From Candidatus Aegiribacteria sp. MLS_C (GTDB lineage: Bacteria > Fermentibacterota > Fermentibacteria > Fermentibacterales > JCC-6), in contig LQBI01000008.1 of assembly GCA_002030045.1 (NCBI GenBank), forward strand, positions 18,487-82,486: a stretch of 64,000 nt of DNA, read 5' to 3'. Of the stretch, positions 6,487-26,280 are shown piece by piece. The translations under genes and the position numbers were made by a program. The notes below the pieces were generated by a model. That model was given only the letters and a program-made list of their open reading frames with translations. It had not been told where the DNA came from and ran no database searches. How positions within the stretch are numbered: the first letter of the stretch is position 1; the number at the start of each line of letters is the position of its first letter.

Positions 6487-6550
6487 ACCATTCCCCTGGA
6501 CACATTCGCATTCCTCATCATGGTGATTACCCCCGACACTGTGAACCGGC

Positions 6551-8148: not shown

Positions 8149-9080
8149 CTTCGAGCCCCTCCGGCAAGGACCTCCGCCACCCTGAGAAGGTTGCCGGTCC
8201 AGTCCTCCGCAAGCGGGTCCATCACGGCAACTTCACCGTCCAGCTCCGCGGCTATGGCCTCCGCCGCCGAAGTGCTGAACTGGGGGGACACGAAGACCCT
8301 CTCGATGCCGTGCTGCCTGGCGTAGTCCACCAGATCGGCCAGTTCGCCGGGTGAGGGTTCGCTGCCGCCGCTCTCAACAGGCACCTGGACCAGGTGGAAC
8401 TCGTCGGCGAAGTAGCCCCAGGCCGGGTGGAACACCATGAAGCTCCTGGATTCCAGGGTGTCCAGCGCGGAATGGATTCCGGCCTGAAGCGAGTCTATCT
8501 CCCGGAGGAAGCCCTCCAGGTTCTCCATGTAAAGATCCGAGGCGGTGGTGTCCATGGAGGCAAGGGTCTCCGCCATGATCCTGGCCTGGTGCTTCACCAG
8601 TTCCGGAGACAGCCAGACGTGTGGATCCGGCGAGCCCTCCCCGTGGCTGTGGCCGCCGTGCCCGGTATTCCGGCCCCCGCCGCCGGCTGAATGCTCGATC
8701 GAGTACCTGTCTATGGGAAGCCTTTCCAGGCCCTCGACCGTACTGACTACGATCAGGTCCGGATTCGATCCTCTGAACCTGGGGATCCAGGTCTCCTCGA
8801 ATGCCACGCCCACCGTGAACCAGAACCGGGTATCGCTCATGGTCCTCATGTCCGACGGGGCAGGCTCGTACGTGGCGGGATTCGCTCCCGGCGGCACCAC
8901 CACGGTTACACGAATCCTGTCCCCTCCCACACGTTCGAGGAAGTACTTCTGGGGCAGAACGCTTACAGCTGCACGGATCAATCCGTCCCCGGCCCCCGAA
9001 GCCCCTCCGCAGGATGAAACCGCGGCCAGCGCCATGAGCGAACAGATGGCAGTTGCGGTCAGTCTTCGGATCCTGCGCAT
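8145..9080 (-). CDS. znuA: Zinc-binding lipoprotein of the ABC transporter (ZnuA-like)
   Basis: From ATG 9080 the product has 311 residues. The leader ends in a lipobox with VSSC (Cys24), so it is an anchored lipoprotein. The body follows the ZnuA/TroA fold (AAVSVLPQKYFLERVGGDRI, PPGANPATYEPAPSDM). A histidine-rich loop around 135-155 (TGHGGHSHGEGSPDPHVWL) is typical of zinc rather than manganese binders. Downstream elements MVFHPAWGYFADEF and VFVSPQFSTSAA supply expected ligand regions. The start codon lies 22 bases inside the end of the zur gene and the stop overlaps znuC. Confidence 0.92.
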   Translation of the reverse strand: MRRIRRLTATAICSLMALAAVSSCGGASGAGDGLIRAAVSVLPQKYFLERVGGDRIRVTVVVPPGANPATYEPAPSDMRTMSDTRFWFTVGVAFEETWIPRFRGSNPDLIVVSTVEGLERLPIDRYSIEHSAGGGGRNTGHGGHSHGEGSPDPHVWLSPELVKHQARIMAETLASMDTTASDLYMENLEGFLREIDSLQAGIHSALDTLESRSFMVFHPAWGYFADEFHLVQVPVESGGSEPSPGELADLVDYARQHGIERVFVSPQFSTSAAEAIAAELDGEVAVMDPLAEDWTGNLLRVAEVLAGGARR

Positions 9081-9484
9081 TTGTTGCACTTCCCTTCGAG
9101 TATAAGGTCTGAACCCTCTATCCTGAAGCCTCCCGAACTCTCTATCTCGCGGAGAAAAGCCTCCGGCAGCCTGTAGTGCACGGGGAACCGCCTGCCGCAT
9201 CCCGCGCACCTGAAATGGCCGTGGTCGGGGTAGAACTGCCTGGAGCACCTGTACCTGTGGACTCCGTCATCGTTCCTGTCGGGTCTGAGGAAGCCGGCCT
9301 TCTCCAGGGAGGCGAGACAGCGGTGGACGGAGGATATGTGGACTCCGGTGCTAAGCCTGTCCATTATGTCCCTTGCAGTGAGGCCGCAGGCGCCGTCGAG
9401 GAAGAGGCCCACCACCTCCTTCTTGAGCGGCGTCATCCGCAGGCCCTGTTCGCGGAGCCTTTCCCATGCCCTGTTCGATTCCAC
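9059..9484 (-). CDS. zur: Fur-family metal regulator, probably Zur
   Basis: A 141-residue Fur-family repressor with a GTG start at 9484 and a strong AGGAGG five bases before it. The N-terminal winged helix (REQGLRMTPLKKEVVGLF, SSVHRCLASLEKAGFLRP) binds DNA. The C-terminal part has DHGHF plus the two Cys pairs CAGC (93-96) and CNKC (133-136) that hold structural zinc. It is the first gene of the znuA-znuC-znuB operon and sits next to a 21-base dyad that overlaps the operon's own -10 box, so autoregulated zinc-dependent repression is likely. Fur or Mur specificity cannot be excluded from sequence alone. Confidence 0.88.
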   Translation of the reverse strand: MESNRAWERLREQGLRMTPLKKEVVGLFLDGACGLTARDIMDRLSTGVHISSVHRCLASLEKAGFLRPDRNDDGVHRYRCSRQFYPDHGHFRCAGCGRRFPVHYRLPEAFLREIESSGGFRIEGSDLILEGKCNKCAGSED

Positions 9485-10435: not shown

Positions 10436-10969
10436 TTGCGAATAACGCCGCTTGATATAAGAAGACAGAATTTCCGCAAGATAATGCGTGGATACGATGT
10501 CGACGAGGTGGAGGCCTTCCTGGAGATGGTGGCATCCGCCTGGGAGGAGCTGGTGGAGGACCTGGACAAGGCGGAAAAGGAACTCAGCGTCCTCAGGGCC
10601 AGGGCCGCCGATTTCGACCGCATGGAGGGAGCTGTGAGGGACGTCCTGGTCCAGCAGCAGCAGAGCGCCGCCCAGGCCCGCAAGGAGGCTGACCGGGAGG
10701 CGGAACTCATCATCATGGACGCGGAGGTCAAAGCCTCCAACCTCATCTCCGAGGCCAGGGAGAGGGTCCAGGTCCTGACGGAGACCATTCGGGAGCTTCA
10801 GGACAGGAGACTGTCCGTACTATCGCAGGTAAGGTCCTTCGTCGATTCCCAGAACAGGATGCTGGACATGGAGGAGGAGAGGATAAAATCCGAGATGGTT
10901 CCCGAGGAGGAGAAGCTCCCCGGGGAGGAGGACGGCGATTCACCACTGCTGGAACTCACGGAACTATAA
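10436..10969 (+). CDS. DivIVA-domain coiled-coil protein
   Basis: The 177-residue protein begins at TTG 10436. Its first 60 residues form a DivIVA domain (RITPLDIRRQNFRKIMRGYD followed by VDEVEAFLEMVASAWEEL), which in other bacteria binds membranes and polar or septal sites. The remainder is a long charged coiled coil (about 40-155) rich in E, R, A and Q, ending in an acidic tail. It is cytoplasmic. The order yggS-divIVA is common in bacteria, so the link to the downstream secretion genes could be only positional; the gap to the C25 gene is 18 bases, compatible with one transcript. Confidence 0.88.
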   Translation: MRITPLDIRRQNFRKIMRGYDVDEVEAFLEMVASAWEELVEDLDKAEKELSVLRARAADFDRMEGAVRDVLVQQQQSAAQARKEADREAELIIMDAEVKASNLISEARERVQVLTETIRELQDRRLSVLSQVRSFVDSQNRMLDMEEERIKSEMVPEEEKLPGEEDGDSPLLELTEL

Positions 10970-10987
10970 GGACATGAGGGGCGGCCT

Positions 10988-13900
10988 ATGAGTTACCTCC
11001 TGCTGATGACGGCGCTGGTTCTCCAGTACGGCGGGACCGGCAATGCCTGGGATTCCGTGCGTGAGGCTGCAGAGGCGGATGTGCGGGTGGGCGCGTCTGA
11101 GACCGTCCTCATCTGGGAGTGCCCGGAGCTGATACCTCTTGAAGTGCCCCTTGAAGGCGTCGTCGGATACATGGCGGAAGGATGCTCCTTCGCGGGTGAC
11201 GATGGCGGTATCCTGCTTCCGGCCGCCTACCTGTTCTTCGCAGTGCCTCCGGATTCGGATTGCGAGCTGGAGGTTTTCCCGGAAGGCGCCCGTAGCCTGG
11301 GCCGGCACCAGGTGGCGAATGTGGAGGTCTCCGAAGAGGGAATGGACGTCTACACCGTCGCGGAACCGGGAAGCCAGCCCTCTGAATGGGGCGGGATCGT
11401 CCACCGTGGGACCTTCAGGAGGGCCGGCTACGCAATGGTGAGGCTCAATCCGGTGATACTCGACGGCGACGGGCTCATGACCGCCCGCAGCCTGACCGTG
11501 CGGCTTTCCTACGATGGAAGGACTGCGCCATCCCCCGCCGGGGGGACCTCGGGCGCCATCTTCGACCTCCTGTTCGAGGGGGGTGACAGGGTATGGCAGT
11601 CCCCTCCCGAGAGACAGGGTCCGGGACCCTTCTGGGGTCTTCCCTGGTACCGCATGGAAGTCGATACCGCAGGGATGTACAGTGTCGAATGCTCCGAAGT
11701 CCCGCAGGCCGAGGGAGCCCCTTCCGCCAGCCTTGCCCTCTTCTGCGGCATGGGCAGGGAGATGGGCGATGCCCCCTGGGAGAACGCCTACACCCCCAGG
11801 CCAGTGCCGATACTGATGCTGGACGGAGGGGACGGAACCTTCGACCAGGGGGACAGTTTCATCTTCTTCGGCCGCGGTCTCTCCTGGTGGGAGGCCGATG
11901 GCCAGTCCATGCCGGGCCATTACGGACACCGGTTCGACGACGCCAACGTCTACTGGCTCACCTGGGGCGGCGAGAACGGACAGAGGATGGCCGAGCAGAA
12001 CGGGGAACTCACCGGGGCCCCGGCCATGCCCGATACCTTCCTGGGCAGGATCCACCGGGAGCAGAACACCGAGAGGTGCAGGGGGACCGCGGGTTTCGAG
12101 GACGACTGGGCCTGGCTCCGCTCCACCGGAGGTTCCGACAGCTGGCACTACTTCGACTTCGAGGCCCCCGGGGCCACCGGTGACGGCTACCTGAGGATGC
12201 GCCTGGCCTCCACCACGGGAATACAGCACAGGGTCAGGGTTTACCTGAATTCGGAGTTCATGGCCGATACCAGCTGGTCCGGGACCGGCTTCATGGATGT
12301 CTTCTGCGGGCTTGAGGGGATACAGCCCGGCGGCAACAGCCTGGCCCTGGAGATAGTGCGGGATTACGGCAGCGACGAGCTATTCATGGACTGGTTCCAG
12401 GTATTCCCCTGGACCGGGTGCACGTCTTCCCCCGTGGTCCAGGTTCCCCTGGAATGGTGGCCCGAGTACGAAAGGCATTCCCTTGACTGGGGTGAGGGCC
12501 TGGAGGACGCTCTGGTGTTCCTGGTGAGCGGCGATACGCTGGCCCGGAGGGTACTTCCGGACGATCCCCGGGTCTTCGAGTTCCAGGTCCCGGCCGACTG
12601 GGAGGCAAGGGAGCTCTGGATAGTGGGCGAAAACGGGCTTCTGACACCCCAGGCCATCACCTACAGGACCCCGGGACGCATAGCGGGGACCGTGACAGGG
12701 GCCGGTTGCGTCTACATCGCCGCAGACCAGTTCCTGGACGATATCGAGCCTCTCTCCGACAGGTACGGGACCCTTTCCTTCTCCGCGTCGGAGGTGTACG
12801 AGGAGTTCAACGGCGGCGTGCGTGACCCGGGAGCCATAAGGGCCCTGGTCTCACGCATGATGGCCTCCTGGGACCCGATCCCCGCCGATCTGGTCCTGGT
12901 GGGGGGTGGCACATGGGATCCCAGGAATTTCGTTTTCTCCAAACCGTCCCTTATAGACGTCCTCTACCTGGGCACCACCACCATCGTCAGCGACGACGAG
13001 TTCGCCGTCGTGGACGGGATGACCGCCCCACAGACGGCGGTATCCAGGATAGGGGTCTGCAACGCCACCGATCTCCAGAGGGTGGTGCAGAGATCCGTCG
13101 AATACAGGTCAGGCATGAACCGCGGGAGCTGGCAGACGGCGGTGATCGGAGCCGCCGACGACGAGAGGTCGCCTCTCCACGGGAGCGACGAACGCTACCA
13201 CACCCAGAGCGTTGAAAGGCTCCTTACCTCCTGGCTTCCAGAAATCCTCAGGCCCGAGAAGCTCTACATGATCTTCTACGACTGGAACAGCATCTGGAGC
13301 AAGCCCGAGGCCAGGGAGGACTACATAGACCTCTGGAGCGAGGGAGCCCTCGTCTCGTTCTACCTCGGTCACGGGTCCTTCGATCAGCTGGCCGACGAGG
13401 GGCTTCTCTACCTCGAGGACACGGATGTGCTGGAATGCGGTCCCCGCCTTCCGGTAGCCTTCTTCGGCTCCTGCGACGTGGGTCGTTTTCAGGACCCTTC
13501 GTCCGAGTGCATAGGCCAGCAGGTAACCGTCTCGCAATCGGGAGGGGCGATCATAGGCGTCGCCGCCTCGGACAAGACCTCCGGCCCGATGAACGAGACC
13601 CTGATAGCAAGCATTTTCGACCATCTCCTGGTCGAACCGGGAGTATCCGTGGGCACGGCCATACTGCTGGGAAAGCTCGACGCCGGTTATTCGACCAACA
13701 ACGCCCAGTACGTTGTATTCGGCGACGGAAGCCTGCCACTGGCCTTTCCATGGGACAGCTTCGGCATGGCTGCGGACACAATGCTGGCGGGAGAGATGAA
13801 CTCGCTCTCAGGGACCGGCCCGGAACCGGGCCTCCTGATCGTGGAGGCCTGGGAGTCCTGCATTCCCGATACCTATTACACCTTCAGGCAGTCGCTGCCC

Positions 13901-14749
13901 ATCGGCTACCTGTCCATACCGGGGAGGTACTACTACGGCACAGCCGCCGCCCAGCCGGATTATTCCCTCGAGATGTTCGTCCCCATCGATGCTGACACCG
14001 GCAGGTCGGCCAGGACGCAGATGGTTCTCCTGAGTGACGGGGGCCTCTCGACGGCCTCCTCGTATCCGGGGTGGCTGCTTCGGGGCGATCCGGGACAGGA
14101 TGCGCAGGGGCCGGATATCGAACTCTGGATCGAGGGGTACAGGTACGCCACCCGGCCTGAGGTTTCGGGTGAGATCGTCGCCAGTGCGATACTGTCTGAC
14201 AGCTCGGGCATCAACCTCCTCGGAGGGGTTGGACGGCAGCTGGTCCTCTACGTGGACGGCGCGCCGCAGGACGTCTCGTCACTTTTTCAGTACGACAGGG
14301 GATCCAGCACCACAGGCAGCCTGAGCTGCAACATAGGCGAACTTGAGCCGGGTCCCCATACCCTCGGGCTTCGAGCGGCGGACGGTCTCCTCAACATTTC
14401 CGAGGAGGAGATCGACATCACGGTTACCGAGGACAACAGCTTCATGATACTCGAGGTATTTCCCTATCCGAATCCCTGCTCCGACGGCACTTCGATAAAC
14501 TGGACCCAGACCGCTCCGGGGACCGTGGGCATATCCGTCTTCACCGTCGCGGGCAGAAGGGTGGCCGCCTTCGGGAACATCGAGGGGAGCGCAGGATATA
14601 ACCAGTGCTGGTGGGACTGCCGGGACGCTGACGGCGATGAGGTGGCCAGCGGATCGTATATTTTCGTGGTTGCCCCTGACATGCCCGGCGGCGATGCCGG
14701 ATCATCTTCGGTTACCGGGATCATCGCGGTGGTCAGAGGGCAGGACTGA
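10988..14749 (+). CDS. porU: C25-family (gingipain-like) peptidase, PorU-like sortase candidate
   Basis: A 1253-residue exported protein. A signal peptide (MSYLLLMTALVLQYGGTGNA) precedes about 550 residues of beta-rich sequence. The C25 caspase-like domain (about 570-930) has the catalytic His in FYLGHGSF (His795) and Cys in FFGSCDVGRF (Cys829). It also has the flanking AVSRIGV, GGAIIGVAASDKT and YVVFGDGSLPLAFP, which correspond to VSR, GGA and LGDP elements of PorU. A FlgD/CTD-like domain closes the chain (FPYPNPC, VFTVAGRRVA). In Bacteroidota PorU removes CTDs and attaches substrates to the surface and is encoded beside PorV, as here. It could instead be a secreted C25 protease that is itself a substrate. 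Confidence 0.8.
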   Translation: MSYLLLMTALVLQYGGTGNAWDSVREAAEADVRVGASETVLIWECPELIPLEVPLEGVVGYMAEGCSFAGDDGGILLPAAYLFFAVPPDSDCELEVFPEGARSLGRHQVANVEVSEEGMDVYTVAEPGSQPSEWGGIVHRGTFRRAGYAMVRLNPVILDGDGLMTARSLTVRLSYDGRTAPSPAGGTSGAIFDLLFEGGDRVWQSPPERQGPGPFWGLPWYRMEVDTAGMYSVECSEVPQAEGAPSASLALFCGMGREMGDAPWENAYTPRPVPILMLDGGDGTFDQGDSFIFFGRGLSWWEADGQSMPGHYGHRFDDANVYWLTWGGENGQRMAEQNGELTGAPAMPDTFLGRIHREQNTERCRGTAGFEDDWAWLRSTGGSDSWHYFDFEAPGATGDGYLRMRLASTTGIQHRVRVYLNSEFMADTSWSGTGFMDVFCGLEGIQPGGNSLALEIVRDYGSDELFMDWFQVFPWTGCTSSPVVQVPLEWWPEYERHSLDWGEGLEDALVFLVSGDTLARRVLPDDPRVFEFQVPADWEARELWIVGENGLLTPQAITYRTPGRIAGTVTGAGCVYIAADQFLDDIEPLSDRYGTLSFSASEVYEEFNGGVRDPGAIRALVSRMMASWDPIPADLVLVGGGTWDPRNFVFSKPSLIDVLYLGTTTIVSDDEFAVVDGMTAPQTAVSRIGVCNATDLQRVVQRSVEYRSGMNRGSWQTAVIGAADDERSPLHGSDERYHTQSVERLLTSWLPEILRPEKLYMIFYDWNSIWSKPEAREDYIDLWSEGALVSFYLGHGSFDQLADEGLLYLEDTDVLECGPRLPVAFFGSCDVGRFQDPSSECIGQQVTVSQSGGAIIGVAASDKTSGPMNETLIASIFDHLLVEPGVSVGTAILLGKLDAGYSTNNAQYVVFGDGSLPLAFPWDSFGMAADTMLAGEMNSLSGTGPEPGLLIVEAWESCIPDTYYTFRQSLPIGYLSIPGRYYYGTAAAQPDYSLEMFVPIDADTGRSARTQMVLLSDGGLSTASSYPGWLLRGDPGQDAQGPDIELWIEGYRYATRPEVSGEIVASAILSDSSGINLLGGVGRQLVLYVDGAPQDVSSLFQYDRGSSTTGSLSCNIGELEPGPHTLGLRAADGLLNISEEEIDITVTEDNSFMILEVFPYPNPCSDGTSINWTQTAPGTVGISVFTVAGRRVAAFGNIEGSAGYNQCWWDCRDADGDEVASGSYIFVVAPDMPGGDAGSSSVTGIIAVVRGQD

Positions 14750-14889
14750 ACCGGTCGATGAATGGGCCGGTCTGTCCGGTGAAGAGGACCGGGTGAAGGA
14801 ACCCGCACCTGTCCTGGCGTGTTACGCTCCTTGACTGGTATGGATAACTCAGGCCGAAGCAGGACTTCGGTGTATCTCAGGAGGAACCG

Positions 14890-15894
14890 ATGATCAAAGG
14901 ACTAGTTCTCTTTCTCGCAGTTCTTGCTTTGGCCGGCGTTTCCGGCGGATCCACCGCCAGCGTCATCTGGATGACCATAACCCCCGGTGCCAGGCCCAAC
15001 GGAATGGGCGAGGCCTTCACCGCCATGGCCGACGACGCCACCGCCTCGTACTGGAACCCGGCGGGGCTGGCCTTCGCGGACACCACGGGGCAGGAGATAA
15101 CCCTGCAGCACAGCAACTGGCTGCCGCAGCTGGCGGACGATCTCTACTACGAGTTCCTCGGATACTCGAACTACATCGACGGCTGGGGCGGAGTGGGCGG
15201 CAACATAACCTTCATGTCCATGGGAGAGCAGCTGGAGACCACCGAATCAGGCCAGGAACTCGGCGAGTTCTACTCATACGGCATTGCCCTGACCGGCTCC
15301 TTCGGTACCGAAGTGGCACCCGGAGTCTCCGTCGGACTGGGCCTCAAGTTCATATACGATCATCTCTACTACGAGGATTCCGGCAAGGGGACCTCCTTCG
15401 GCGCAGACCTGGGCGTCCTGTACCAGCTTCCGATGGAGCAGCTGGGCATAGGGAACATAGGCCGGATCAACCTTGGAGCCAGCCTGGCGAACCTCGGTCC
15501 CAACATGAGCTACGGTGGAAGCACCGAGAACAACCCGCTGCCCAGGACTCTCCGCGTTGGAATGGCCTACGTCCCGTTCGACAGTCACCTCACGAGGCTC
15601 AGCTGTACGGCGGACTACAGCAAGATACTGGTGAACGTCGACGACGGCATCGGTGAGGAGTTCAACGAGAACAAGTGGGGTGCCGGCGCCGAATTCTGGT
15701 ACTACGACCTGCTGGCCCTGAGGGCCGGTTACATACACGATACCGAGGGCATCTCCACCATACAGGGTCCCACCTTCGGCGCCGGTCTTCAGTACTCGGG
15801 CTTCCAGCTGGACATGGCCTTCATACCTGTAGAGGAGAACCTCCAGGGTTCAGGCAAGTACAATTCCAAGTACTCGCTGTCCGTAAGGTTCTAG
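14890..15894 (+). CDS. porV: PorV/PorQ-family outer-membrane protein
   Basis: The 334-residue product has a signal peptide (MIKGLVLFLAVLALAGVSGG) and the PorV/PorQ family opening: MTITPGARPNGMGEAFTAMA, then DDATASYWNPAGLAF, which in FadL-like barrels forms the N-terminal region inside the pore. The rest alternates short hydrophobic strands (GGNITFMSMGEQ, VSVGLGLKFIYDHLYYED, FGAGLQYSGFQLDMAF) and ends in an aromatic RF, as barrel proteins do. In type IX secretion PorV shuttles CTD substrates from the translocon to the PorU sortase. AGGAGG lies just before the ATG. The next gene begins six bases after its stop. Distinguishing PorV from PorQ is not possible here. Confidence 0.85.
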   Translation: MIKGLVLFLAVLALAGVSGGSTASVIWMTITPGARPNGMGEAFTAMADDATASYWNPAGLAFADTTGQEITLQHSNWLPQLADDLYYEFLGYSNYIDGWGGVGGNITFMSMGEQLETTESGQELGEFYSYGIALTGSFGTEVAPGVSVGLGLKFIYDHLYYEDSGKGTSFGADLGVLYQLPMEQLGIGNIGRINLGASLANLGPNMSYGGSTENNPLPRTLRVGMAYVPFDSHLTRLSCTADYSKILVNVDDGIGEEFNENKWGAGAEFWYYDLLALRAGYIHDTEGISTIQGPTFGAGLQYSGFQLDMAFIPVEENLQGSGKYNSKYSLSVRF

Positions 15895-15900
15895 GGTTCG

Positions 15901-18732
15901 ATGTCCAGTCCCTTCCGGGTACTCCTGCCCCTCCTGCTGGCGCTTCCCGCCGCGGCTGCCCCCCCGCTGGTTCACGGTGCGGTGCCTCCGCTTCATGAGA
16001 GACCCTCTGAGGGAAGGGCGATAACCGGGCCCGGCTCGAGGGACGGCACCGACGAGACCATGCGCGTATGCATGCTGAGGGTGCAGTTCCTGGAGGACTT
16101 CACGGACCTTACCACAGGCAGCGGCCTGATCGACCTGGATGCCGACCCGCCCCACGACAGGGACTATTTCCGTGGTCTGGCCGACGACCTTTCCGCTTAC
16201 TACGACGACGTAAGCGGCGGGGAGGTAGTGCTGGACATCGACATATACCCGTCGGGATTCAATGACAGCTACACCATGGACCACCAGATGCTCCACTACG
16301 GCGACGACGGCGCCTACATGGAAGGCGCCTGCCTCCTGCTCCGGGATGCCGTCCTGGCGGCCGACCAGGACCTGGACTTCAGCCAGTACGACGCGGTGAT
16401 CGTGATACATGCCGGCTCCGGCCAGGAGGCCGACATATACGGGGACAGCCCCGGCGACATAGGTTCCGTCTTCCTCACACTGACGGATCTCATCTATTAC
16501 CTCCCCGGCGCGGGGACCGGATACCAGGGCATACCCACCGGGGACGGCGTCTACGTAGCGGAAGGGATGATAGTGCCCGAACAGGAATCACAGGACGGCT
16601 TCGGCCTGGGAGTGCTGGGCACGATAGTCCACGAGTTCGGCCACCAGCTTGGTCTTCCGGACCTCTACGACACGTACACGGGCAGGGTGGGAGTTGGCGG
16701 ATGGTGCCTGATGGGCTACGGCCAGTGGATGATGAGCGGTTACTGGCCCTCGGCGCCGAGCGCCTGGTGCAGGGTATACCTGGGATGGGAGGTACCCCGG
16801 GAGGTGGAGGAGGGCACCTACACCCTGGCCGCTGACGATTCCATACTGATGGTTCCGCTGAACGGCACCGAGTACCTGCTGATCGAGAACAGGCAGGAGG
16901 ATCCCGACGGCGACGGGATGTGCGGTACGGACGAGCACGATTTCGGTCTTGCAGGCTCCGGAGTGCTGATCTGGCACATAGACAGGACCCGACTGGGGGA
17001 ATACGTGGGGGCCAACATCGTGAACGTGGATCCCGAACACAAGGGGGTGGACCTGGAGGAGGCCGACGGCATACAGGATTTCGACTACTCCCTGCCTGAC
17101 ATATACGGCTACGAGGGCAGCAGCTACGATCCATGGTTCCCGTCGGGGTACGCATGGGAATTCTCTCCCTGGTCGGAGCCCTCCAGCGACGCAAGCTGGG
17201 GAGGCAGGACCTTCGTTACGGTGGAGGTGCTGGACGATCCGGCCGATGAGATGCAGGTCAGGATATCAAGGTCCACCGTCTGCGACGGATGGCCCCTGAG
17301 TACTGCTCCCCTTGCCTTCGGTCCGGTGATCTGGCCGGAAGCCGACGAAGAGGGGGACAGAATGGTTGTCACCACCAGCACCGGAATGGCGCTGGCCTAC
17401 ACCGCCGACGGTGAGGGTCCTCTCTCCATGGGGCTTGGCGTGACCGCCCCCCCGGTGTCCGCCTGGACCGGAAGCTCCAGCAGGCTCCTGGTCTGCGAGG
17501 ACGACGGAGAGGTTCACCTTCGGGACACCCGGTGGAACGAACCGGCGGGATGGCCGGTGACGCTGCAGGGCGGGGGTTCCGGAGCGAGTGCGATGTACAT
17601 CGAGGAGGAAGGCGTCGTCGCGGTGGCATGTGACAACGACAGGCTCCATCTGTACCATGGTAACGGGGAACCGGTTGACGGATTCCCGGTCCCCCTCACG
17701 GCTCCCGTCTCCGGACTGGCTCTCTATCCCGGCCCCGATGAGCACCGGCTGCTGGCCGCCACGTTAGACGGCAGGGTCCACATGTGGGACATGACCGGAA
17801 GGGTCGTTTCCGGATGGCCCGCGACTCCGGGGGACGAGACCATAGGAGTGCCCCTTGCGGCGGACATCGACCGCGACGGAAGCACCGACGTGGTGGCCGT
17901 CAGCGGCGATTGTGTCTACGCCTGGGACGGCGGGGGAGGCCTTCTTCCGGGATTCCCGTCCACGCTTCCCGCTGAACCTCTCTCCTCGCCCTGTCTGGCC
18001 GATCCCGACGGTGACGGCAGACTGGAGACGGTGGTCCTGACATGGGAGGGGATATCCGCGGTGGGTCCCTCGGGGGCCACCGTGGAGGACTGGCCCGCAG
18101 TAATTCTTCAGGACAGCCTGACTGCTGGTTTCAGCAGCGGAAGGGCCGGGGTGGGAGGCTCAGGTTTCGTCATGGTCACCATGGACGACGGCAGGGTATG
18201 CCTCCTTGAAGGCGACGGCTCCCAGAGCGGCATCTTCCCGGTATCCGTGGGAGACAGGCCGACGGGAAGACCCCTGCTGTGGGACCCTGACGGTTCAGGG
18301 CAGTACAGGGTCGCGGCAGCGGCCGCTGACGGGACCATCTACTGCTGGAACACCGATTTCGAGCCCCGGGGATGGCACACGGGAATGGACCATTCCGGTT
18401 GCAACTGCTGGCGGACCGGCGACCTGCCGGCTCTCGAGGACACGGACCGGGTACTGGAAGACGGTTCCTTCTACGTTTATCCCAATCCCGTGACCGGAGG
18501 GTCGGGGATCGTGAGGTTCAGGCCCGGGGAAGACTGCGCCTGGGAGATACGCGTTTTCAACATGGGAGGTGACCTCGTGGCCCACATGACCGGAAGCGCC
18601 CCCGGGGGGGCGGCCTGGGAGGAGACCTGGGACACGCGGGACCTGGCGCCGGGCGTCTATTTCGTGAGCCTGAGCCTGAGGACCGGCGGAAGCTCCACAG
18701 AAGCCCTCTTCCATGCGGCGGTGATCAACTGA
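15901..18732 (+). CDS. Secreted M6-family metalloprotease with beta-propeller and C-terminal sorting domain
   Basis: The 943-residue product carries a signal peptide (first 20 residues), a prodomain-like segment and an M6/immune-inhibitor-A-type catalytic domain. The zinc motif HEFGHQLGLPDLYD starts at residue 244 and matches HExxHxxGxxD. GGWCLMGYG lies downstream as the Met-turn region, followed by LLIENRQ and GVLIWHIDR, which are typical of M6 peptidases. Residues about 450-850 are a seven- or eight-bladed propeller with DxDGDG-type calcium loops (ADIDRDGSTDVVAVSGD). The tail YPNPVTGG, NMGGDLVAHM and LAPGVYFVSLSL is a CTD. A probable substrate of the neighbouring PorU/PorV pair. Its stop overlaps the next start (TGATG). 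Confidence 0.88.
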   Translation: MSSPFRVLLPLLLALPAAAAPPLVHGAVPPLHERPSEGRAITGPGSRDGTDETMRVCMLRVQFLEDFTDLTTGSGLIDLDADPPHDRDYFRGLADDLSAYYDDVSGGEVVLDIDIYPSGFNDSYTMDHQMLHYGDDGAYMEGACLLLRDAVLAADQDLDFSQYDAVIVIHAGSGQEADIYGDSPGDIGSVFLTLTDLIYYLPGAGTGYQGIPTGDGVYVAEGMIVPEQESQDGFGLGVLGTIVHEFGHQLGLPDLYDTYTGRVGVGGWCLMGYGQWMMSGYWPSAPSAWCRVYLGWEVPREVEEGTYTLAADDSILMVPLNGTEYLLIENRQEDPDGDGMCGTDEHDFGLAGSGVLIWHIDRTRLGEYVGANIVNVDPEHKGVDLEEADGIQDFDYSLPDIYGYEGSSYDPWFPSGYAWEFSPWSEPSSDASWGGRTFVTVEVLDDPADEMQVRISRSTVCDGWPLSTAPLAFGPVIWPEADEEGDRMVVTTSTGMALAYTADGEGPLSMGLGVTAPPVSAWTGSSSRLLVCEDDGEVHLRDTRWNEPAGWPVTLQGGGSGASAMYIEEEGVVAVACDNDRLHLYHGNGEPVDGFPVPLTAPVSGLALYPGPDEHRLLAATLDGRVHMWDMTGRVVSGWPATPGDETIGVPLAADIDRDGSTDVVAVSGDCVYAWDGGGGLLPGFPSTLPAEPLSSPCLADPDGDGRLETVVLTWEGISAVGPSGATVEDWPAVILQDSLTAGFSSGRAGVGGSGFVMVTMDDGRVCLLEGDGSQSGIFPVSVGDRPTGRPLLWDPDGSGQYRVAAAAADGTIYCWNTDFEPRGWHTGMDHSGCNCWRTGDLPALEDTDRVLEDGSFYVYPNPVTGGSGIVRFRPGEDCAWEIRVFNMGGDLVAHMTGSAPGGAAWEETWDTRDLAPGVYFVSLSLRTGGSSTEALFHAAVIN

Positions 18733-19394
18733 TGAGAAAAACCACCCTGCTGACAGTCTTTGCGGTGCTGCTGGCGGCTGCGGGACCATCGGGAGCGGTC
18801 AACCCCAGGGCCGGGGCCATGCTCCGTTCCGCCGTCCTGCCCGGATGGGGCCAGATGCACCTGGGCCACGGGACCAGGGGAATAGTGTTCATGAGCCTGG
18901 ACCTTGTCACCTGGGCCGGCGTGGGCCTCTCCTACCTCGAGGGAACGTTCAGGCGTGACGACTACACGTGGCTTGCTGTGTCCGAGGCTGGTATATCGGT
19001 GGACGGAAGGCCCGGGGATTTCCTGGACGACATATCCGACTTCGACTCCAGCATGGAGTACAACGACTACATCCACAGGCTGGCCCGGTACTACTACCCC
19101 GACGATCCCGACGCCCAGCGCCAGTACTACGAGTCCCACGCAAGGTACGGCGACGATTCCTGGGACTGGTCCTCCGAGGAGGCGAGGGCGATGTTCGGAA
19201 GCCGACTCCGGGACAGCAGGGAGTGGTTCAGGCGGAGCCTCTACATAGCCGCCTTCGCCCTGGTCAACAGGGCCGTGAGCGTCATCGACGCATCACTGCT
19301 GGACGAGAACCGACCGGGGATGTACACTTCGCTCTCGTTCCCCGAGAAGCGTGATTTCTCCTCCTTCAGGTTCTCCGTGGGGGCACGGTTCTGA
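18732..19394 (+). CDS. DUF5683-type membrane-associated protein
   Basis: The 220-residue product has a signal peptide (MRKTTLLTVFAVLLAAAGPSGA) and the DUF5683 signature SAVLPGWGQMHLGHGTRG followed by a hydrophobic stretch (IVFMSLDLVTWAGVGLSYLE). A later segment (RRSLYIAAFALVNRAVSVIDA) is a second hydrophobic region. The end SFRFSVGARF resembles a strand plus terminal Phe. Members of this family are common in FCB genomes and are often near outer-membrane or secretion genes; their function is unknown. It overlaps its neighbours by TGATG at both ends, so it is translated as part of the secretion block. Confidence 0.75.
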   Translation: MRKTTLLTVFAVLLAAAGPSGAVNPRAGAMLRSAVLPGWGQMHLGHGTRGIVFMSLDLVTWAGVGLSYLEGTFRRDDYTWLAVSEAGISVDGRPGDFLDDISDFDSSMEYNDYIHRLARYYYPDDPDAQRQYYESHARYGDDSWDWSSEEARAMFGSRLRDSREWFRRSLYIAAFALVNRAVSVIDASLLDENRPGMYTSLSFPEKRDFSSFRFSVGARF

Positions 19395-21055
19395 TGGCGC
19401 CGCTACTGCTCGCCCTGTTGCTGGGCACGGCTCCCCGGGCGTACTGGACCGACGGCACGCTCCAGGTGCCGGGGCTGATGGAGATCGACAGGCGCCACGA
19501 CCCGGCATTCGAGCCCACCGGACCGCTGGCAGGCGCAAAGGGCCACGAGATAGGCGATACGATCAATTTCTGGTCCATCGACTACAGCGAGGACATTCCG
19601 AGGTTCTACCTGACGCCGGCGACCTGCAGGTACGTGGGCAACCACACCTACATCTTCGTGGAGGATTCCCAGTGGGGTGTCCACTACGACCAGGATGCGG
19701 TCAGCGCACTGGCGACGGCGCTGGAGACCGAGACCCCCTCGGGTCCGGGAGGGATCATGGACAAGGACATAGAAGTCTTCGGGCAGCCTCCCGACGCCAT
19801 AGACGGTGACCCCAGGGTCTATTTCCTGGTACTGAACATAAGGGACGGCTTCGATCCCCAGCAGGGCGGAGTCTACATCGCCGGCTTCTTCAGTCCCTAC
19901 AACCAGTTCACCGAGACCGAGGCCTACCTCTACTACGGGGGGCATTCCAACGAGGTGGAGATGCTCTACATAGACTGTTTCCCCTCGGACCAGTACGATG
20001 CGGCCTACACCGCCTCCCACGAGCTGGTCCACCTGATACAGTGGGGCATCGAGCCCTTCAGCTCCGAGGAGCTGTGGGTCATAGAGAACCAGGCCCAGTC
20101 GGGAACCTTCGTGTGCGGATACCCGGCCTTCCAGGTGGAGACATTCCTTGAGGTGGGCGGCATCACCCCCATCAAGTGGACCAGCCTCACCGACGACATA
20201 GAGTACGTGGCAGGCTACGGAGCCGGGTTCCTGTTCTTCTCCTACCTCTACGAGAACTACGGCGGCGACGATTTCCTGCACAGCTCGCTCAGGGTATCCG
20301 ACAGGGGAGTGTCAGGAGTGAGCGAGGCCATAAGGAACGCCACCGGTGAGACGCCCGACATGGACCAGGTGCTGGCCGATTGGATGCTGGCATGCTGGAT
20401 CGACGATCCCGGTTTCGGCGACGGAAGGTACGGCTGGGACGCTTTCCGCATCGCAGACTACGACACAGTGTCACCGGGGAACCGCGCCGGTCTCGACTAC
20501 TCCCGCATCATCGAATCGGACCCCTTCATCGATACCGGCCGACGCATGTCCTCCTACCAGGGAAGCTACTACCGGGTCGACCAGGGCGTCGGCGGCAGTT
20601 TCAGGGCCGACGGGTCGGGCCTGGGCGACATGAGGGCGTACCTCTTCGACGGCTCCGCGGGTATTCTGGAAGTACTGGACACGGGATCCTCCAACGACGT
20701 GGCCCTTTCACTTCCCCAGACCGGCGACGTTCTTCTCATGTGCAGCTCCTTCAGCGGCCTCGACCTGGATGTGGCGGCAGGTTCCGTCGCGTCCGCCTCC
20801 GATGATTTCGCCGTCTACCCGCAGCCCTGCCAGGGCACCCTCTACATGCAGTTCCTCTCGGACGGCGGGAGCGCCGAACTCTCGGTCTTCTCCGTCACCG
20901 GAGGGCTGGTGGGGACGGTGGAGTTCCCCTCAGTTGCAGGCGGTGAAGCCACTCTCGCCTACCCGGGAGCCTCAGAGCTCGCCTCGGGCACCTACTTCTA
21001 CAGGTTCACCCAGGGAGGAAGAGTGGAGACCGGTTCGTTCGCAGTTGTGCGCTAG
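19394..21055 (+). CDS. Secreted M30-like zinc metalloprotease with C-terminal sorting domain
   Basis: A 553-residue protein. The leader MAPLLLALLLGTAPRA is a short signal peptide. A zincin motif HELVH lies at 209-213 in AAYTASHELVHLIQWGIE, with WVIENQAQ about 25 residues on offering the third ligand (Glu), the arrangement seen in M30/hyicolysin-like peptidases. The segment GFLFFSYLYENYGGDDFLH is also typical of these gluzincins. The C-terminus (VYPQPCQGTLYMQFL, VFSVTGGLVGTV, LASGTYFYRFTQGG) is a Por-type sorting domain. It is therefore likely a secreted or surface protease exported by the same system as the M6 protease. Family placement below zincin level is uncertain. Confidence 0.82.
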   Translation: MAPLLLALLLGTAPRAYWTDGTLQVPGLMEIDRRHDPAFEPTGPLAGAKGHEIGDTINFWSIDYSEDIPRFYLTPATCRYVGNHTYIFVEDSQWGVHYDQDAVSALATALETETPSGPGGIMDKDIEVFGQPPDAIDGDPRVYFLVLNIRDGFDPQQGGVYIAGFFSPYNQFTETEAYLYYGGHSNEVEMLYIDCFPSDQYDAAYTASHELVHLIQWGIEPFSSEELWVIENQAQSGTFVCGYPAFQVETFLEVGGITPIKWTSLTDDIEYVAGYGAGFLFFSYLYENYGGDDFLHSSLRVSDRGVSGVSEAIRNATGETPDMDQVLADWMLACWIDDPGFGDGRYGWDAFRIADYDTVSPGNRAGLDYSRIIESDPFIDTGRRMSSYQGSYYRVDQGVGGSFRADGSGLGDMRAYLFDGSAGILEVLDTGSSNDVALSLPQTGDVLLMCSSFSGLDLDVAAGSVASASDDFAVYPQPCQGTLYMQFLSDGGSAELSVFSVTGGLVGTVEFPSVAGGEATLAYPGASELASGTYFYRFTQGGRVETGSFAVVR

Positions 21056-21803
21056 GAGGATCCTCTCCGCGCTGTCACTGCTGGTCGCCCTGCAGCCGCT
21101 CCATTCAGCACCTGTATCCGCCTTTGCCGAATCCCGCCGGGTGACCTTCCCTCCGGACCTTGTGGACGCCTCCATCGATGGAAGCGGAGACATCTACCTC
21201 CTCCTGAGGGGGATGCCCCACCTGGTGGTCCTCAGAGCCGACGGCTCGAGCGAGGAGTACGATCTCCGGGAGATAACCGTTCCGGGAGGTCTGCACCTGG
21301 ACCAGGGCTGGGGATGGTACGCCACCGGGGAACTGTCGGGAACCCTGTACCGCTACGACAGGAACGGAGTGATGACGGGATCCTGGGATGCCCCCGGTCT
21401 TCCCGGGGATGTCTGCGTGGCAGGGCTGTCCGTACTGTACGTTTCCCGTACCGACGGGACCGTGAGGTCCGTCAGGGACCCGGAGGAGGAACTTCTCGGT
21501 CTGGAGGGGTCGGGGGACGGCCAGCTGACTCCGATGGGGAGAAGGTTCGTCTACTCCTCCCCGGACGAGTCCATGGTGCTCGACGAGTACAACTCCCCCC
21601 TGCCCCTGCCCGCCTCGGGAATATGGACTGCCGCCGGAGAGGAACTGGTGCTGCTGACCGATTCGTGCGTATGCACCCGGGAGGGCCTGGAACTCTTCAG
21701 GCTGCCTCCCGGGGAGACCTTCGGAAGGATCTCCCTCGCGGGAGGAGGGGCCTTCTGCCTCCTCTGGTCGCCGGGAGAGGAGAAGGCTCTGGTACTGAGG
21801 TGA
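21045..21803 (+). CDS. Small exported beta-propeller-like protein of the secretion block
   Basis: The frame overlapping the end of the M30-like gene encodes a 252-residue protein if it starts at TTG 21045, the choice that gives a basic n-region and hydrophobic leader (ARRILSALSLLVALQPLHSA). An AGGAGG at 21054-21059 would suit a start a little downstream, but no ATG, GTG or TTG is available there. Repeats such as GSGDIYLLLRGMPHLVVLRA, GLHLDQGWGWYATGELSGTL and GLSVLYVSRTDGTVRSV resemble NHL/six-bladed propeller blades. Its stop overlaps the next gene (GTGA). It may be a periplasmic partner of the large outer-membrane protein; that is inference from position. Confidence 0.7.
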   Translation: MCARRILSALSLLVALQPLHSAPVSAFAESRRVTFPPDLVDASIDGSGDIYLLLRGMPHLVVLRADGSSEEYDLREITVPGGLHLDQGWGWYATGELSGTLYRYDRNGVMTGSWDAPGLPGDVCVAGLSVLYVSRTDGTVRSVRDPEEELLGLEGSGDGQLTPMGRRFVYSSPDESMVLDEYNSPLPLPASGIWTAAGEELVLLTDSCVCTREGLELFRLPPGETFGRISLAGGGAFCLLWSPGEEKALVLR

Positions 21804-24800
21804 TCCAGGGAGCCGTCCTCATGATGGCCATTTCCGCGATGACCCTGGAGTTCAGGGGCGACGGAGGGGAGTTCTTTCAGGTCCCCGACTCGTTGTGGAT
21901 CGAACCGGGCACCCTCACGGCAACGGTAGACGGCGATACCGTAGAGGTCACGGCTGGAGCCTCCGGTTCCAGGACCGGTGTATTCCTCTCTCCGGCTCCT
22001 CCCACCGACAGCAGGGTGATCGTCTCCTTCGACACGCTCCCTCTGGGTGTGCCCTCCACCGTTGTTCTGGACGTTGGTTTCGCCGGCGGAAGGACTATCG
22101 AGCAGCTTCCCGTCCATTCCTCCGACCCGTTCATGGAGAGAGGCCTGTACATCTCGGGTTCGAAGAGGATAGGCTTCTCCGTGGGCGACGGAGGCGGACT
22201 GGACCAGGGGACGAGGATATCGGTGGAGGGTACGGCGGCTCCGGGAATAACCGTCTCCGGAAGCGTCACCGACCAGAACCTGGCATCGGGGCAGTACTCG
22301 TCGGAACTGGTATCCCAGCTGGACAGGGTGTTCTTCCTCGTTGACGGCGGAAAGTGGCGGGCCAGGCTGGGCGACATGGAATGGACCAGCGGCGGGGGGG
22401 AGACCGGTCCGCTCTCCTGGAGACGCGAGGTGAGCGGCATCGACGGGTTCGGTCAGCTCTCGGACCGGTATTCGGCGTCGGCCGGGTACGGCACTTCCGG
22501 CGATTCACGGCAGAGGACCGTTTTCTACACGCAGGAAGGCGTCCAGGGACCCTATCAGGTTACTTCCGGATGGGAGGTGGTCCCCGGGAGCGAGAGGGTC
22601 TGGCTGGACGGGGAACTCATGACCAGGGGCGCCACCGGGGATTACGTCATGGAATACTCGGCCGGCCTGGTCACCTTCACCTCCTCGAGGCTCATCAGGA
22701 ACGACCAGAGGGTGGAGATAACCTTCTTCCAGAGGGGGGACGGGTTCAGGAAGGACCTGGTGACTGCGGCCGGTTCCTACGGCAGCGGTCCCCTCACCAT
22801 AGAGGTGAAAGGTCTCCTCGCCGAGGACGACAGGGGTTCTCCCCTTGGCTTCGTGCTGACCGAGGAGGCCGTGGAGGTGCTTTCCCGGGCCGGAGAGGAC
22901 CCTTCGGAAGCCTGGGTGGACGGGGCCGAGTACGTCGGGGAGGGCCAGGGCAACTACACGCTCGATTCCCTGGGACATTTCGTCTACATGGGACCCGACC
23001 AGGGGGACTGGACGGTGGTCTTCGGCCGTCCGCCGGAGGACCCGGGCGACTACATATACGACAGTTCCCTGGGAGGCTACCTCTGGGTGGGAGAGGGTAT
23101 GGGGACCCATCTTCCCAGGCAGTACGTGCAGATACCATCGGGTTACAGGACCGGCGGGGCGGTCATGGCCCTGGACGGGGACCTGCTTCACCTCGGAATG
23201 GAACTGGCCGTCTCCCGGAGGACCGGGAACATGTTCAATCCCGGCGCAACCACCAGGGAGGGGGTATTCCTGAAAGCCTCCGGGCTCATGGACTTCTGGG
23301 AGGACGGTCCCGGACTGGGGCTGGGAGGCAGGCTGGTATCCGAGGGCTACAGGCCTCCGGGGGAGCTGGAGTCCGACAGCTCCCTTGCGGCATGGTCACT
23401 GCCCCCCGGGCATTCGGGCAACGACCAGCTGGTGGAGATGAGCATCGGCGGTGAGGCGCTCCTTCTCTCCAGCGGCGGCAGGTTCCTGGAGACCGGGGGC
23501 ATCATCGAGAGCTACAGGGTGGTCTCGAGACCCGTACTGGCAGGCGTCGGGCTCACCGCCACCTGCGGCTGGCTTGGCAGAACGGGCACCGACAGCCTGT
23601 CCGAGGGGAAAAACTCCCGGTACGGGGTCTCGGGAATGCCGGTCCATGGAACGCTCAGGCCCTTCGCGGGCCTCGATCTCTACAGCGAGGCCTGGACGGA
23701 CAGCCTCTCGGGAAGGGTGGGGACCGGCCACGCCGGTATGCTCCTGGATGCCGGGAGCACAACGGGTCTACTCCGCATGGAGGTCCAGAGGGACGACCGG
23801 ACCGGCGGGACCTCCGAAGGCCCGTTCACAGTATGGAGAGGCAGGATAGAGGGTTCCGGTCCCGCGGGAAGCCTCAGGCTGAAGGGAAGCGCGGAACACT
23901 CCTCCACCTACTACGACACGGGAGGAAATCTGCAGGCCGACGCGGTGAGGGTGACCCTCTCCGGCACCGCGGGGGGCGTATGGTCCGAGACCGTGTACAG
24001 CGGCTCCGGAACCGTCAGCAGTTCACTGGACGTAGTGTACGTGTACGCAGGAGAGGGTGAGGGGGACTACAGCTACGACCCGGAGAGCGGGGAGTACTAC
24101 CCTGATCCCGACGGGGACTATCTGATAAGCTACCAGCCGGGAACACAGGGAGGCAAGGTGACGTCCGCCTCCATCGAGAACACCGTCACCTGGGCCGAGG
24201 CGTCGCACGGCTTCAGTTCCAGGGCCACCGTCTCCTCCACAAGCGCGGAGGACCGGTCCAGCGCCCTGCTTCTCTACGGAGCCTTCGACAGCGGACAGGA
24301 AGGGGGCTACAGCCTGGAGTCATCCCCATGGCTCCGCTGGGAGGATGAATTCCTGGCCAGGCTCGGCTTCACCGGGGCGCTCAGCGACCAGAGGGTGGCC
24401 TACAGCGGCGCCGGATTGCGGCGGAAGAGGGCATGGTCACTTCGGGCGGCCCCTCAGCTCATCCCCTTCGAGGAACTGGTGGTGGACCTGTCCGCCAGGA
24501 TCTGGAGGGAGGAGGACGAACTCTACAGCCCAAGGGACGTCAGAGGGACGAGGCTGGAGGTTGACCCTGCCCTGGAGGTGCTTGCCGGGCTCAGACCCGG
24601 TTTGCTGGGGGCCTGGGAGACCCGCAGGGAGGTCGTATCGGGGCTTTCCGAATACATGCTGGAGGCGGGGCCTCACGTATCCTGGACCGGAGGAGGATGG
24701 ACCGCCACCGCCAGGTTGACCGCAGGATACATACCCGGCGAAGGGGACCTTCCCGCATGGTTCTTCGACGGAAACGACTTCGGGGTTTCCTGGAGGGCGT

Positions 24801-24922
24801 CTGCAAGAGTGGGCAGGAGCCTCGCGTCCGGTCTGGACATGAGCGTCTTCTACTGGGGGAGGAGACCGGCAGGGGGCGAGCTGAGCCAGAGGGCCGGCCT
24901 GGAGGGGACGGTGAACTTCTGA
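21800..24922 (+). CDS. Large outer-membrane beta-barrel candidate (1040 residues), possible type IX translocon-like protein
   Basis: The start GTG 21800 overlaps the preceding TGA; an ATG at 21821 is an alternative. After a short leader come Ig-like beta domains (about 20-170), then a long run of alternating strands (LSWRREVSGIDGFGQL, SAGYGTSGDS, ARVGRSLASGLDMSVFYWG) ending GLEGTVNF, consistent with a large barrel with terminal Phe. Segments like GDYVMEYSAGLVTFTSSR resemble strands in SprA/Sov-type proteins. A motif of the form GEGxGxYxYDxxxGxY followed by xGDY recurs at about residues 377-404, 416-435 and 744-776. At 1040 residues it is about half the size of SprA, so identity with the type IX pore is a hypothesis. 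TGATG couples it to the Omp85 gene. Confidence 0.65.
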   Translation: MIQGAVLMMAISAMTLEFRGDGGEFFQVPDSLWIEPGTLTATVDGDTVEVTAGASGSRTGVFLSPAPPTDSRVIVSFDTLPLGVPSTVVLDVGFAGGRTIEQLPVHSSDPFMERGLYISGSKRIGFSVGDGGGLDQGTRISVEGTAAPGITVSGSVTDQNLASGQYSSELVSQLDRVFFLVDGGKWRARLGDMEWTSGGGETGPLSWRREVSGIDGFGQLSDRYSASAGYGTSGDSRQRTVFYTQEGVQGPYQVTSGWEVVPGSERVWLDGELMTRGATGDYVMEYSAGLVTFTSSRLIRNDQRVEITFFQRGDGFRKDLVTAAGSYGSGPLTIEVKGLLAEDDRGSPLGFVLTEEAVEVLSRAGEDPSEAWVDGAEYVGEGQGNYTLDSLGHFVYMGPDQGDWTVVFGRPPEDPGDYIYDSSLGGYLWVGEGMGTHLPRQYVQIPSGYRTGGAVMALDGDLLHLGMELAVSRRTGNMFNPGATTREGVFLKASGLMDFWEDGPGLGLGGRLVSEGYRPPGELESDSSLAAWSLPPGHSGNDQLVEMSIGGEALLLSSGGRFLETGGIIESYRVVSRPVLAGVGLTATCGWLGRTGTDSLSEGKNSRYGVSGMPVHGTLRPFAGLDLYSEAWTDSLSGRVGTGHAGMLLDAGSTTGLLRMEVQRDDRTGGTSEGPFTVWRGRIEGSGPAGSLRLKGSAEHSSTYYDTGGNLQADAVRVTLSGTAGGVWSETVYSGSGTVSSSLDVVYVYAGEGEGDYSYDPESGEYYPDPDGDYLISYQPGTQGGKVTSASIENTVTWAEASHGFSSRATVSSTSAEDRSSALLLYGAFDSGQEGGYSLESSPWLRWEDEFLARLGFTGALSDQRVAYSGAGLRRKRAWSLRAAPQLIPFEELVVDLSARIWREEDELYSPRDVRGTRLEVDPALEVLAGLRPGLLGAWETRREVVSGLSEYMLEAGPHVSWTGGGWTATARLTAGYIPGEGDLPAWFFDGNDFGVSWRASARVGRSLASGLDMSVFYWGRRPAGGELSQRAGLEGTVNF

Positions 24923-26280
24923 TGCCGCACCTGGTCTGGCTGCTCCTCGTGATGACCCCCTCCGCCGGGGATATGCTGTCGGTGGAGATGGGGGGCAGTC
25001 CGCCGGTCCCGGAACTCTACCAGCTGGACCTGGATTCTGTGGTCCTCTCAGACTCCTCAATAGCACTTCTTCAGGAAAGGCTGCTGCAGTGGTACCTGGA
25101 GGAGGGCTATCCCTTCGCCTCGGCGGGTCTCTACCTGTCCTCGCCGGGGACCCTGGCGGTGAACGCCGTGCCGGGAAGGAGGGCCCTCCTTGAAGAGGTG
25201 CGGATATCGGGAATGCCCGGCACCAGGCCCGAGGTGTTCGTCAGGCTCCTTCCCATGAAGCCCGGCGACCCCTACAGCAGGGAGGCGGTGGAGGAGTGGG
25301 TATCCAGGCTGGAGAACCTGAGTTTCGTCGGATCGGTGGGACAGACCCGGCTCCTTCTGGGCAGACTGGGTAACCTGGTCCTGGAGCAGGACCTGGAGAA
25401 GGGCAGCTCGGGTTATTTCTCGGCCTCCATGGACTGGCAGGGCGATTACCTTGAAGGCATGGGAGAGGTCCTCTTCCTCAACCTGGCTGGTACCGCCAGG
25501 GAACTTGAGATAACCGGACGGACCACCGAATGGGGAGGGTTCAACGCTTACCTGAGGTACCGCGAGCCGTGGATATTCGGAATTCCCCTCTCTCTCCAGC
25601 TTGAGCTGTCCCAGGACACTCCGGAGAGCGCCTGGGTCAACAGGGAGGGGAGCCTCACAGGCATATGGAGCTTCGGCGGTATCGAACTCATGGGCGGCGC
25701 CGGACTGTGGAGGGGCTATCCACCGGACGGGGACGAGGAGCGGTACGACTTCGGGCTTGCCGGCATCTCCTACTCAACCAGGCGGCGGGTTTCCCAGGGA
25801 TTCCGGGGCCTGGTCCTGGAAATGGAGGGCAGGACCGGCAACAGGACCGGAGGGGATTCCACCGGCATCCTCACCATGGCCGAAATGACGGTTCGGTACG
25901 ACCGTTACAGTGGACCCCTCGGTTACGGCGGAAGCCTCCTGGCAGGCGGAGTGATGCAGGGGGACTGGTTCACCGGTCTTCTTCAGCGGCTTGGAGGACA
26001 GTCCACCCTGAGGGGATATCCCGAGGATGCCTTCAGGGGCGTCAGGTATGCCGTAGCAAGGCCGGAGGTCTCGCTGGGAGAGACTGAGACCAGGGTCTAC
26101 GTGTTCACCGACCTGGCCGCAGTGCTGACCGACGGGGACGAGACCCGGTATCCTGCGGGTGCCGGAGCGGGGATAAGGGGCAGGAGCGGCGCCTTCAAGG
26201 CCGACGCCGCAGTGGGTTTCCCCCTGGGGGAAGGCGTGGGGAGCGCAAGGGTATACCTGCGTCTCACGGCTTCGATGTGA
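24922..26280 (+). CDS. Omp85-superfamily outer-membrane protein (POTRA plus surface-antigen barrel)
   Basis: A 452-residue protein starting at the ATG of a TGATG overlap. After a signal peptide (MPHLVWLLLVMTPSAG) a POTRA-like segment appears (LLQWYLEEGYPFASAGLYL, then LLEEVRISGMPGTRPEVFV, then MKPGDPYSREAVEEWVSRLE). A barrel of about 300 residues follows with the Omp85 hallmark GGQSTLRGYPEDAFRG near residue 360, then YAVARPEVSL and a final RVYLRLTASM. Family members insert or secrete outer-membrane proteins (BamA, TamA, TpsB). One or two POTRA domains make it closer to TamA or a Bacteroidota-style accessory Omp85 than to BamA. It is the last gene of the secretion block. Confidence 0.82.
   Translation: MPHLVWLLLVMTPSAGDMLSVEMGGSPPVPELYQLDLDSVVLSDSSIALLQERLLQWYLEEGYPFASAGLYLSSPGTLAVNAVPGRRALLEEVRISGMPGTRPEVFVRLLPMKPGDPYSREAVEEWVSRLENLSFVGSVGQTRLLLGRLGNLVLEQDLEKGSSGYFSASMDWQGDYLEGMGEVLFLNLAGTARELEITGRTTEWGGFNAYLRYREPWIFGIPLSLQLELSQDTPESAWVNREGSLTGIWSFGGIELMGGAGLWRGYPPDGDEERYDFGLAGISYSTRRRVSQGFRGLVLEMEGRTGNRTGGDSTGILTMAEMTVRYDRYSGPLGYGGSLLAGGVMQGDWFTGLLQRLGGQSTLRGYPEDAFRGVRYAVARPEVSLGETETRVYVFTDLAAVLTDGDETRYPAGAGAGIRGRSGAFKADAAVGFPLGEGVGSARVYLRLTASM

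Follow-up and report, generated by a model that had tools for sequence, protein, structure and literature searches.

An operon of Candidatus Aegiribacteria (Fermentibacterota) that probably encodes the outer-membrane and cargo-maturing side of type IX secretion, probably without the canonical PorLMN motor

Introduction

Which parts of a type IX secretion system (T9SS) does a bacterium outside the Bacteroidota encode when a PorU-like peptidase gene is found beside a porV gene, and is the motor among them? The locus that raises this question lies in a stretch of 64,000 nucleotides of Candidatus Aegiribacteria sp. MLS_C (contig LQBI01000008.1), hereafter the window. The T9SS has been described as restricted to the Bacteroidetes under a model that includes GldK-N (PMC4793230), and has also been assigned to the FCB superphylum (PMC11205867; PMC8754138). 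C-terminal sorting domains (CTDs) are already known in other FCB lineages (PMC4737851, PMC4814513, PMC3534657), and SprA, described as 36-stranded, is already known as an FCB-specific protein found across most FCB phyla (PMC12611786). In Flavobacterium johnsoniae, the energy-requiring step has been deduced to be the motor-driven release of the carrier-substrate complex (PMC10994853).

A sequence-only reading of the window had proposed a type IX (Por) branch in a phylum of the FCB type other than the Bacteroidota. This much has held, as PorU, PorV and CTD-bearing proteases are encoded in one operon and SprA elsewhere in the genome. We suggest that the operon probably supplies a type IX system with its outer-membrane, cargo-maturing half, together with a companion module, and that the canonical PorLMN motor is absent.

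Results

An operon of eight genes

Between window positions 10988 and 26280, eight tightly ordered genes run on the plus strand from PorU through Omp85, preceded by a DivIVA-like gene:

10436..10969 (+): DivIVA-like gene, named by reading of the sequence
10988..14749 (+): PorU-like C25 sortase, 1253 aa, with His795/Cys829 and C-terminal Ig/CTD-type domains
14890..15894 (+): PorV-family outer-membrane shuttle or carrier, 334 aa
15901..18732 (+): M6-family metalloprotease, 943 aa, with HEFGH and a type IX sorting domain at 859-926
18732..19394 (+): DUF5683-like protein, 220 aa, with a signal-peptide-like start and a C-terminal Phe
19394..21055 (+): MXAN_6640/M30-like metalloprotease, 553 aa, with HELVH and a type IX sorting domain at 474-546
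21045..21803 (+): NHL-type beta-propeller, 252 aa, with a TTG start and an 11-base overlap with the preceding gene
21800..24922 (+): large outer-membrane beta-barrel, 1040 aa, with a GTG start and a SprA-type domain at about 258-345
24922..26280 (+): short Omp85-family protein, ATG at 24922, 453 aa or slightly less depending on the choice of start

All named genes are single open frames on the plus strand; in comparison, 200 mononucleotide shuffles of the region gave open reading frames of up to 513 aa. The genes that the sequence-only reading had listed are thus present as open frames and in an order conserved across the phylum, to which we add the propeller gene at 21045 (TTG)-21803, which it had left unnamed, and an Omp85 start corrected to ATG 24922. 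Its stop/start overlaps from 18732 onward are also present, with sizes of 1, 1, 11, 4 and 1 bases rather than 4-11. Promoter and terminator scans of the region gave no excess over shuffles.

In Fermentibacterota loci long enough to show it, representing three families, the order YggS-DivIVA-PorU-PorV-M6-DUF5683-M30-propeller-barrel-Omp85 is kept, the propeller being too diverged for BLAST in some of them. The DivIVA-like gene lies upstream in every such locus and is not considered part of the machine, only a conserved neighbour. Outside the phylum, a profile search recovered PorU-PorV-M6-DUF5683-propeller-barrel-Omp85, with order and strand unchanged, in loci L202-L211 and L219 (with the propeller undetected in L204 and barely detected in L203, and the Omp85 gene past the contig end in L208), and a partial operon in L222 and L227. 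Across the loci compared inside and outside the phylum, the M30-like gene was seen in Fermentibacterota only. The gene context had at first seemed unusual; the same order, minus the M30-like gene, in fact recurs in about ten other families, and the operon is old and widely shared.

PorU and PorV

The C25 peptidase domain with its His795/Cys829 dyad was confirmed (PF01364, E 2.9e-49). Against the PorU model NF033707 the protein scores 292 bits (E 7e-87), below the 420-bit equivalog cut-off, which some other PorU-like proteins of the Fermentibacterota exceed. PorU (6za2) is its only significant match in the PDB (E 1.5e-18, in two stretches), and N- and C-terminal stretches both align, as expected from the PorU-like flanks noted earlier; residues 1045-1243 align with 6za2 residues 942-1150, so that the C-terminal part is homologous as well. 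The adjoining PorV-family barrel, also named as such from sequence, matches PF19572 with 70 bits (cut-off 27; E 2e-19), NF033709 with 234 bits (cut-off 90) and solved PorV (PDB 6h3i_F) with E 8e-26, and is 66-91% identical across the Fermentibacterota. Both window proteins fall short of the NCBI equivalog cut-offs but exceed those of Pfam or of the subfamily models.

The operon encodes three proteases and the same genome has further PorU-like proteins, which might suggest that the C25 protein is a secreted digestive enzyme and the cluster merely a group of exported proteases. We regard this as highly improbable, given a PDB match to PorU alone that includes the C-terminal part, and a C25 gene that adjoins porV throughout. 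The further copies themselves, two proteins of 1277 and 1257 aa encoded in tandem (L199:4827-13191; G000:C1), form one Fermentibacterota group with the operon PorU, beside the operon PorU of G251 and G380 (support 80), in a tree that includes PorU-type operon proteins of other lineages and leaves out a gingipain outgroup. The tree and the 6za2 match place the C25 protein on the side of PorU rather than of secreted proteases, and we continue to treat it as a PorU-like sortase. A Sir2/CobB deacylase gene lies between the tandem genes, genes for a TPR protein and for a CTD protein follow downstream, and similar tandem matches occur in other Fermentibacterota.

Proteases with sorting domains, and cargo across the genome

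Both metalloproteases carry TIGR04183/PF18962 sorting domains at their extreme C-termini, as the earlier reading had it. The M6 protein is above cut-off for TIGR03296 (117.5 bits) and TIGR04183 (24.6 bits), and HExxH is present in 29 of its 31 relatives. It shares its M6 domain and type IX CTD with NF052323, a family of T9SS-dependent M6-like inactivated metalloproteases (E 2.5e-85), but differs in keeping HExxH and in scoring under that model's cut-off. The M30-like label proved looser: the second protein matches the MXAN_6640 HExxH family NF045524 weakly (E 0.0026) and TIGR04183 with E 5e-4, while HExxH is kept in all 20 relatives. Judging by their CTDs and active-site motifs, the two proteins would most simply be cargo; the M6 gene, however, holds the same place in the operon of different lineages, a hint that its product is more than cargo and perhaps also a conserved partner.

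Spread over the genome are about 96 TIGR04183 matches (E <= 0.1), most of them above cut-off; in control genomes a match above cut-off was found in only 1 of 14. Other window frames with type IX CTD or FlgD_ig matches lie at 54263-55957 (-), which has a PQQ/BamB-like propeller, 2215-4020 (+) and 45162-45791 (+). Close upstream of the operon with its two putative zinc metalloprotease genes, and divergent from it, the window also holds a zinc-uptake cluster at 5467-9484 (-), consisting of an ABC-3 permease, an ATPase, ZnuA, a Fur/Zur-like regulator (ATPase and regulator named by reading of translations) and a radical SAM/SPASM gene.

SprA and the search for a motor

The sequence-only reading had noted that a full-length SprA was missing from this locus. 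A full-length SprA of 1870 aa is encoded on another contig (C13; L002:6308-11920:-), with 422.9 bits against TIGR04189 (cut-off 200) and E 7e-29 against PDB SprA 6h3j. Its gene lies between genes for a GspE/PilB-like ATPase and for LptF/LptG-like proteins, all named by reading translations. Across 21 SprA loci (L002, L239-L258), no operon gene was found beside SprA except for three weak PorU/M6-type matches. Because SprA is on another contig and CTD matches number about 96 genome-wide, the type IX system is distributed rather than self-contained. The proposal of a self-contained cargo-plus-machine operon therefore fails: SprA and some 90 other CTD matches lie elsewhere.

The motor proteins, likewise noted as missing from the locus, were looked for by profile in 80 genomes, nearly all bearing SprA: 18 Fermentibacterota (of which one, G013, is without a SprA_N match), 60 from other lineages, and two, G244 and G374, that we call Bacteroidota-like from their very high SprA_N scores. 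PorU matches occur in 75 of the 80, in 52 of them above cut-off. GldL, GldM and GldN reach their cut-offs only in G244 and G374, where the three genes stand side by side (E 1e-42 to 1e-118). With these as strong controls, GldL and GldM (PorL and PorM) gave no profile match in the Aegiribacteria genome or in 17 other Fermentibacterota, and GldN (PorN) none in the Fermentibacterota genomes searched; by profile, the three proteins were not found in this phylum. The main domain of GldK is also common to many other proteins.

An ordinary type IX system, with a PorKLMN motor too diverged for the profiles, would fit the presence of all the other core parts (SprA, PorU, PorV and the CTD); the GldL, GldM and GldN profiles were built from Bacteroidota sequences and might overlook strongly diverged versions, and two GldL matches in other lineages (G166 and G185) lie far under the cut-off. 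Yet all three proteins are missed jointly in 18 genomes of the Fermentibacterota and in 60 SprA genomes of other lineages, they are strongly detected in the two Bacteroidota-like genomes, and neither the operon nor the sequence read on either side of SprA showed a motor-like gene. Profiles for PorU, PorV and SprA from the same source do work here. We consider a hidden motor of the known kind rather unlikely, and we infer instead that there is probably no motor at all.

A large barrel with a SprA-type domain

The 1040-residue protein, singled out from sequence as a barrel candidate, is predicted by AlphaFold to be a very large barrel (pLDDT 85, pTM 0.72) in a model built from 56 sequences, which replaced an earlier one from 27 sequences of the phylum only (pLDDT 69). 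From residue 115 on, the model has about 39 strands of at least 8 residues, of which some may be part of inserted domains. Profile searches of Pfam and NCBIfam left the family unnamed. TIGR04189 gives the window barrel 18.3 bits (short of the equivalog cut-off of 200) and gives 18-26 bits in four of the five family members tested, and by HHalign the family has a domain of 85 columns in common with SprA (97.5%, E 7e-12; six control profiles all below 1%). Once residues 1-345 are removed, the kinship to SprA is not significant (16%), and we have dropped sequence kinship for the barrel part. Of the solved structures, SprA 8gl6_A aligns over the greatest length by a wide margin (630 residues, rmsd 10.3), with a Z score of 15.1 that is tied with ordinary porins, a loose fold match. 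Foldseek returned mostly generic barrels (TonB receptors and porins; TM about 0.2, rmsd above 16), and we set these matches aside as a guide to function. The protein resembles the SprA/Sov translocon (PDB 8gl6, 6h3i) in its 85-residue domain and its very large predicted barrel, and differs from it in size (1040 residues against 1870 in the SprA of this genome and 2403 in solved SprA) and in sequence outside the shared domain. We therefore describe it as a large barrel that carries a domain of SprA type; to call it a second translocon would be a guess.

A pattern search of contigs gave 34 barrel loci, in Aegiribacteria, Fermentibacter, Sabulitectum and other Fermentibacteria (Hyd24-12). Its confinement to the Fermentibacterota reflects a limit of that method, as a profile search reached other lineages. 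The barrel is present in 38 of 42 Fermentibacterota genomes, and in the Bacteroidota-like G244 and G374 its homologue is a protein of 1080-1200 aa. Of 343 genomes from outside the phylum, 87 have a SprA match, 69 a barrel match and 67 both, which is to say that the barrel occurs in 67 of 87 SprA genomes and in 2 of 256 others (Fisher p 2e-50, uncorrected for shared ancestry). Only two genomes (G080:C164 and G357:C25) have a strong barrel match without a SprA_N match; either SprA was missed in them or the module can stand alone.

The neighbouring proteins

The DUF5683 assignment is weak for the window copy (PF18935, E 0.006, under cut-off) and above cut-off in one operon relative. The last residue is Phe or Tyr in nearly all copies, mostly Phe, with a last strand like that of outer-membrane proteins, which hints at an outer-membrane location. 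A C-terminal Phe is typical of outer-membrane proteins, and nearly all copies of PorV, the DUF5683-like protein and the barrel have one. The window propeller has no family match in a Pfam search; a profile of the propellers of the phylum matches the NHL propeller of L216 (E 6.6e-12), itself a member of PF01436 (E 7e-43). The Omp85 protein resembles BamA and TamA of the Omp85 superfamily in having POTRA and an Omp85-type barrel, and differs in having one detected POTRA (PF07244, 27.8 bits, above cut-off; TIGR03303, 39 bits), in its 453 aa and in standing regularly beside a SprA-domain barrel; its relatives in other lineages have one to three POTRA and an Omp85 domain above cut-off.

Propeller, barrel and Omp85 might instead be an independent system for outer-membrane transport or assembly (e.g., of polysaccharide or lipid) that is merely co-transcribed with porU-porV. 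The three genes do stand apart from porU-porV in L215, L216, L218, L221 and L228, and the polysaccharide exporter AlgE ranks among the best matches of the barrel model by Z score, although such matches are those of generic barrels. The domain in common with SprA, the near-exclusive co-occurrence with it and the linkage to porU-porV in about ten families all speak for a tie to type IX secretion, and we find an independent system unlikely.

Discussion

On our best reading of these results, the operon provides the surface-maturing half of a type IX system that runs without the known PorLMN motor, or with a replacement that has gone unrecognised. The resemblance to the T9SS of Porphyromonas gingivalis and F. 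johnsoniae extends to PorU, PorV, SprA/Sov, C-terminal sorting domains and many cargo proteins. In contrast to those systems, GldL, GldM and GldN (PorL, PorM and PorN) were not found, and porU-porV share their operon with genes for an M6 protease, a DUF5683 protein, a propeller, an Omp85 protein and a barrel of an unnamed family. In the literature covered, which took in neither most subscription papers nor any preprints, we found no report of a motor missing outside the Bacteroidota and no published description of the operon.

By homology to the characterised system, cargo would be exported by Sec and recognised by its CTD, pass SprA on PorV, and have the CTD cleaved by PorU; the M6 and MXAN_6640/M30-like proteases would be cargo of this route. 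A conserved companion module would consist of propeller, SprA-domain barrel, DUF5683 protein and Omp85. The most likely task of Omp85 in it is assembly of the barrel, perhaps also of SprA, and it may assemble PorV and the DUF5683-like proteins as well. If the canonical PorLMN motor is absent, substrate release would be driven in some other way. We would go further only tentatively: it is possible, though we hold it to be somewhat less than an even chance, that most type IX systems outside the Bacteroidota are motorless, that SprA, PorV and PorU with the barrel, NHL propeller, DUF5683 and Omp85 module are the ancestral machine, with release driven by a force other than PorLMN, and that the Bacteroidota added the motor later.

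The many genomes with SprA, PorU and CTDs in which GldL, GldM and GldN are not recognisable would imply either a motor that most lineages can do without or a power source, not yet recognised, in its place, and the operon offers a concrete gene set in which to seek such an alternative. Its large barrel, unnamed in Pfam and NCBIfam and found in Bacteroidota-like genomes as well, is a candidate for a family associated with the T9SS.
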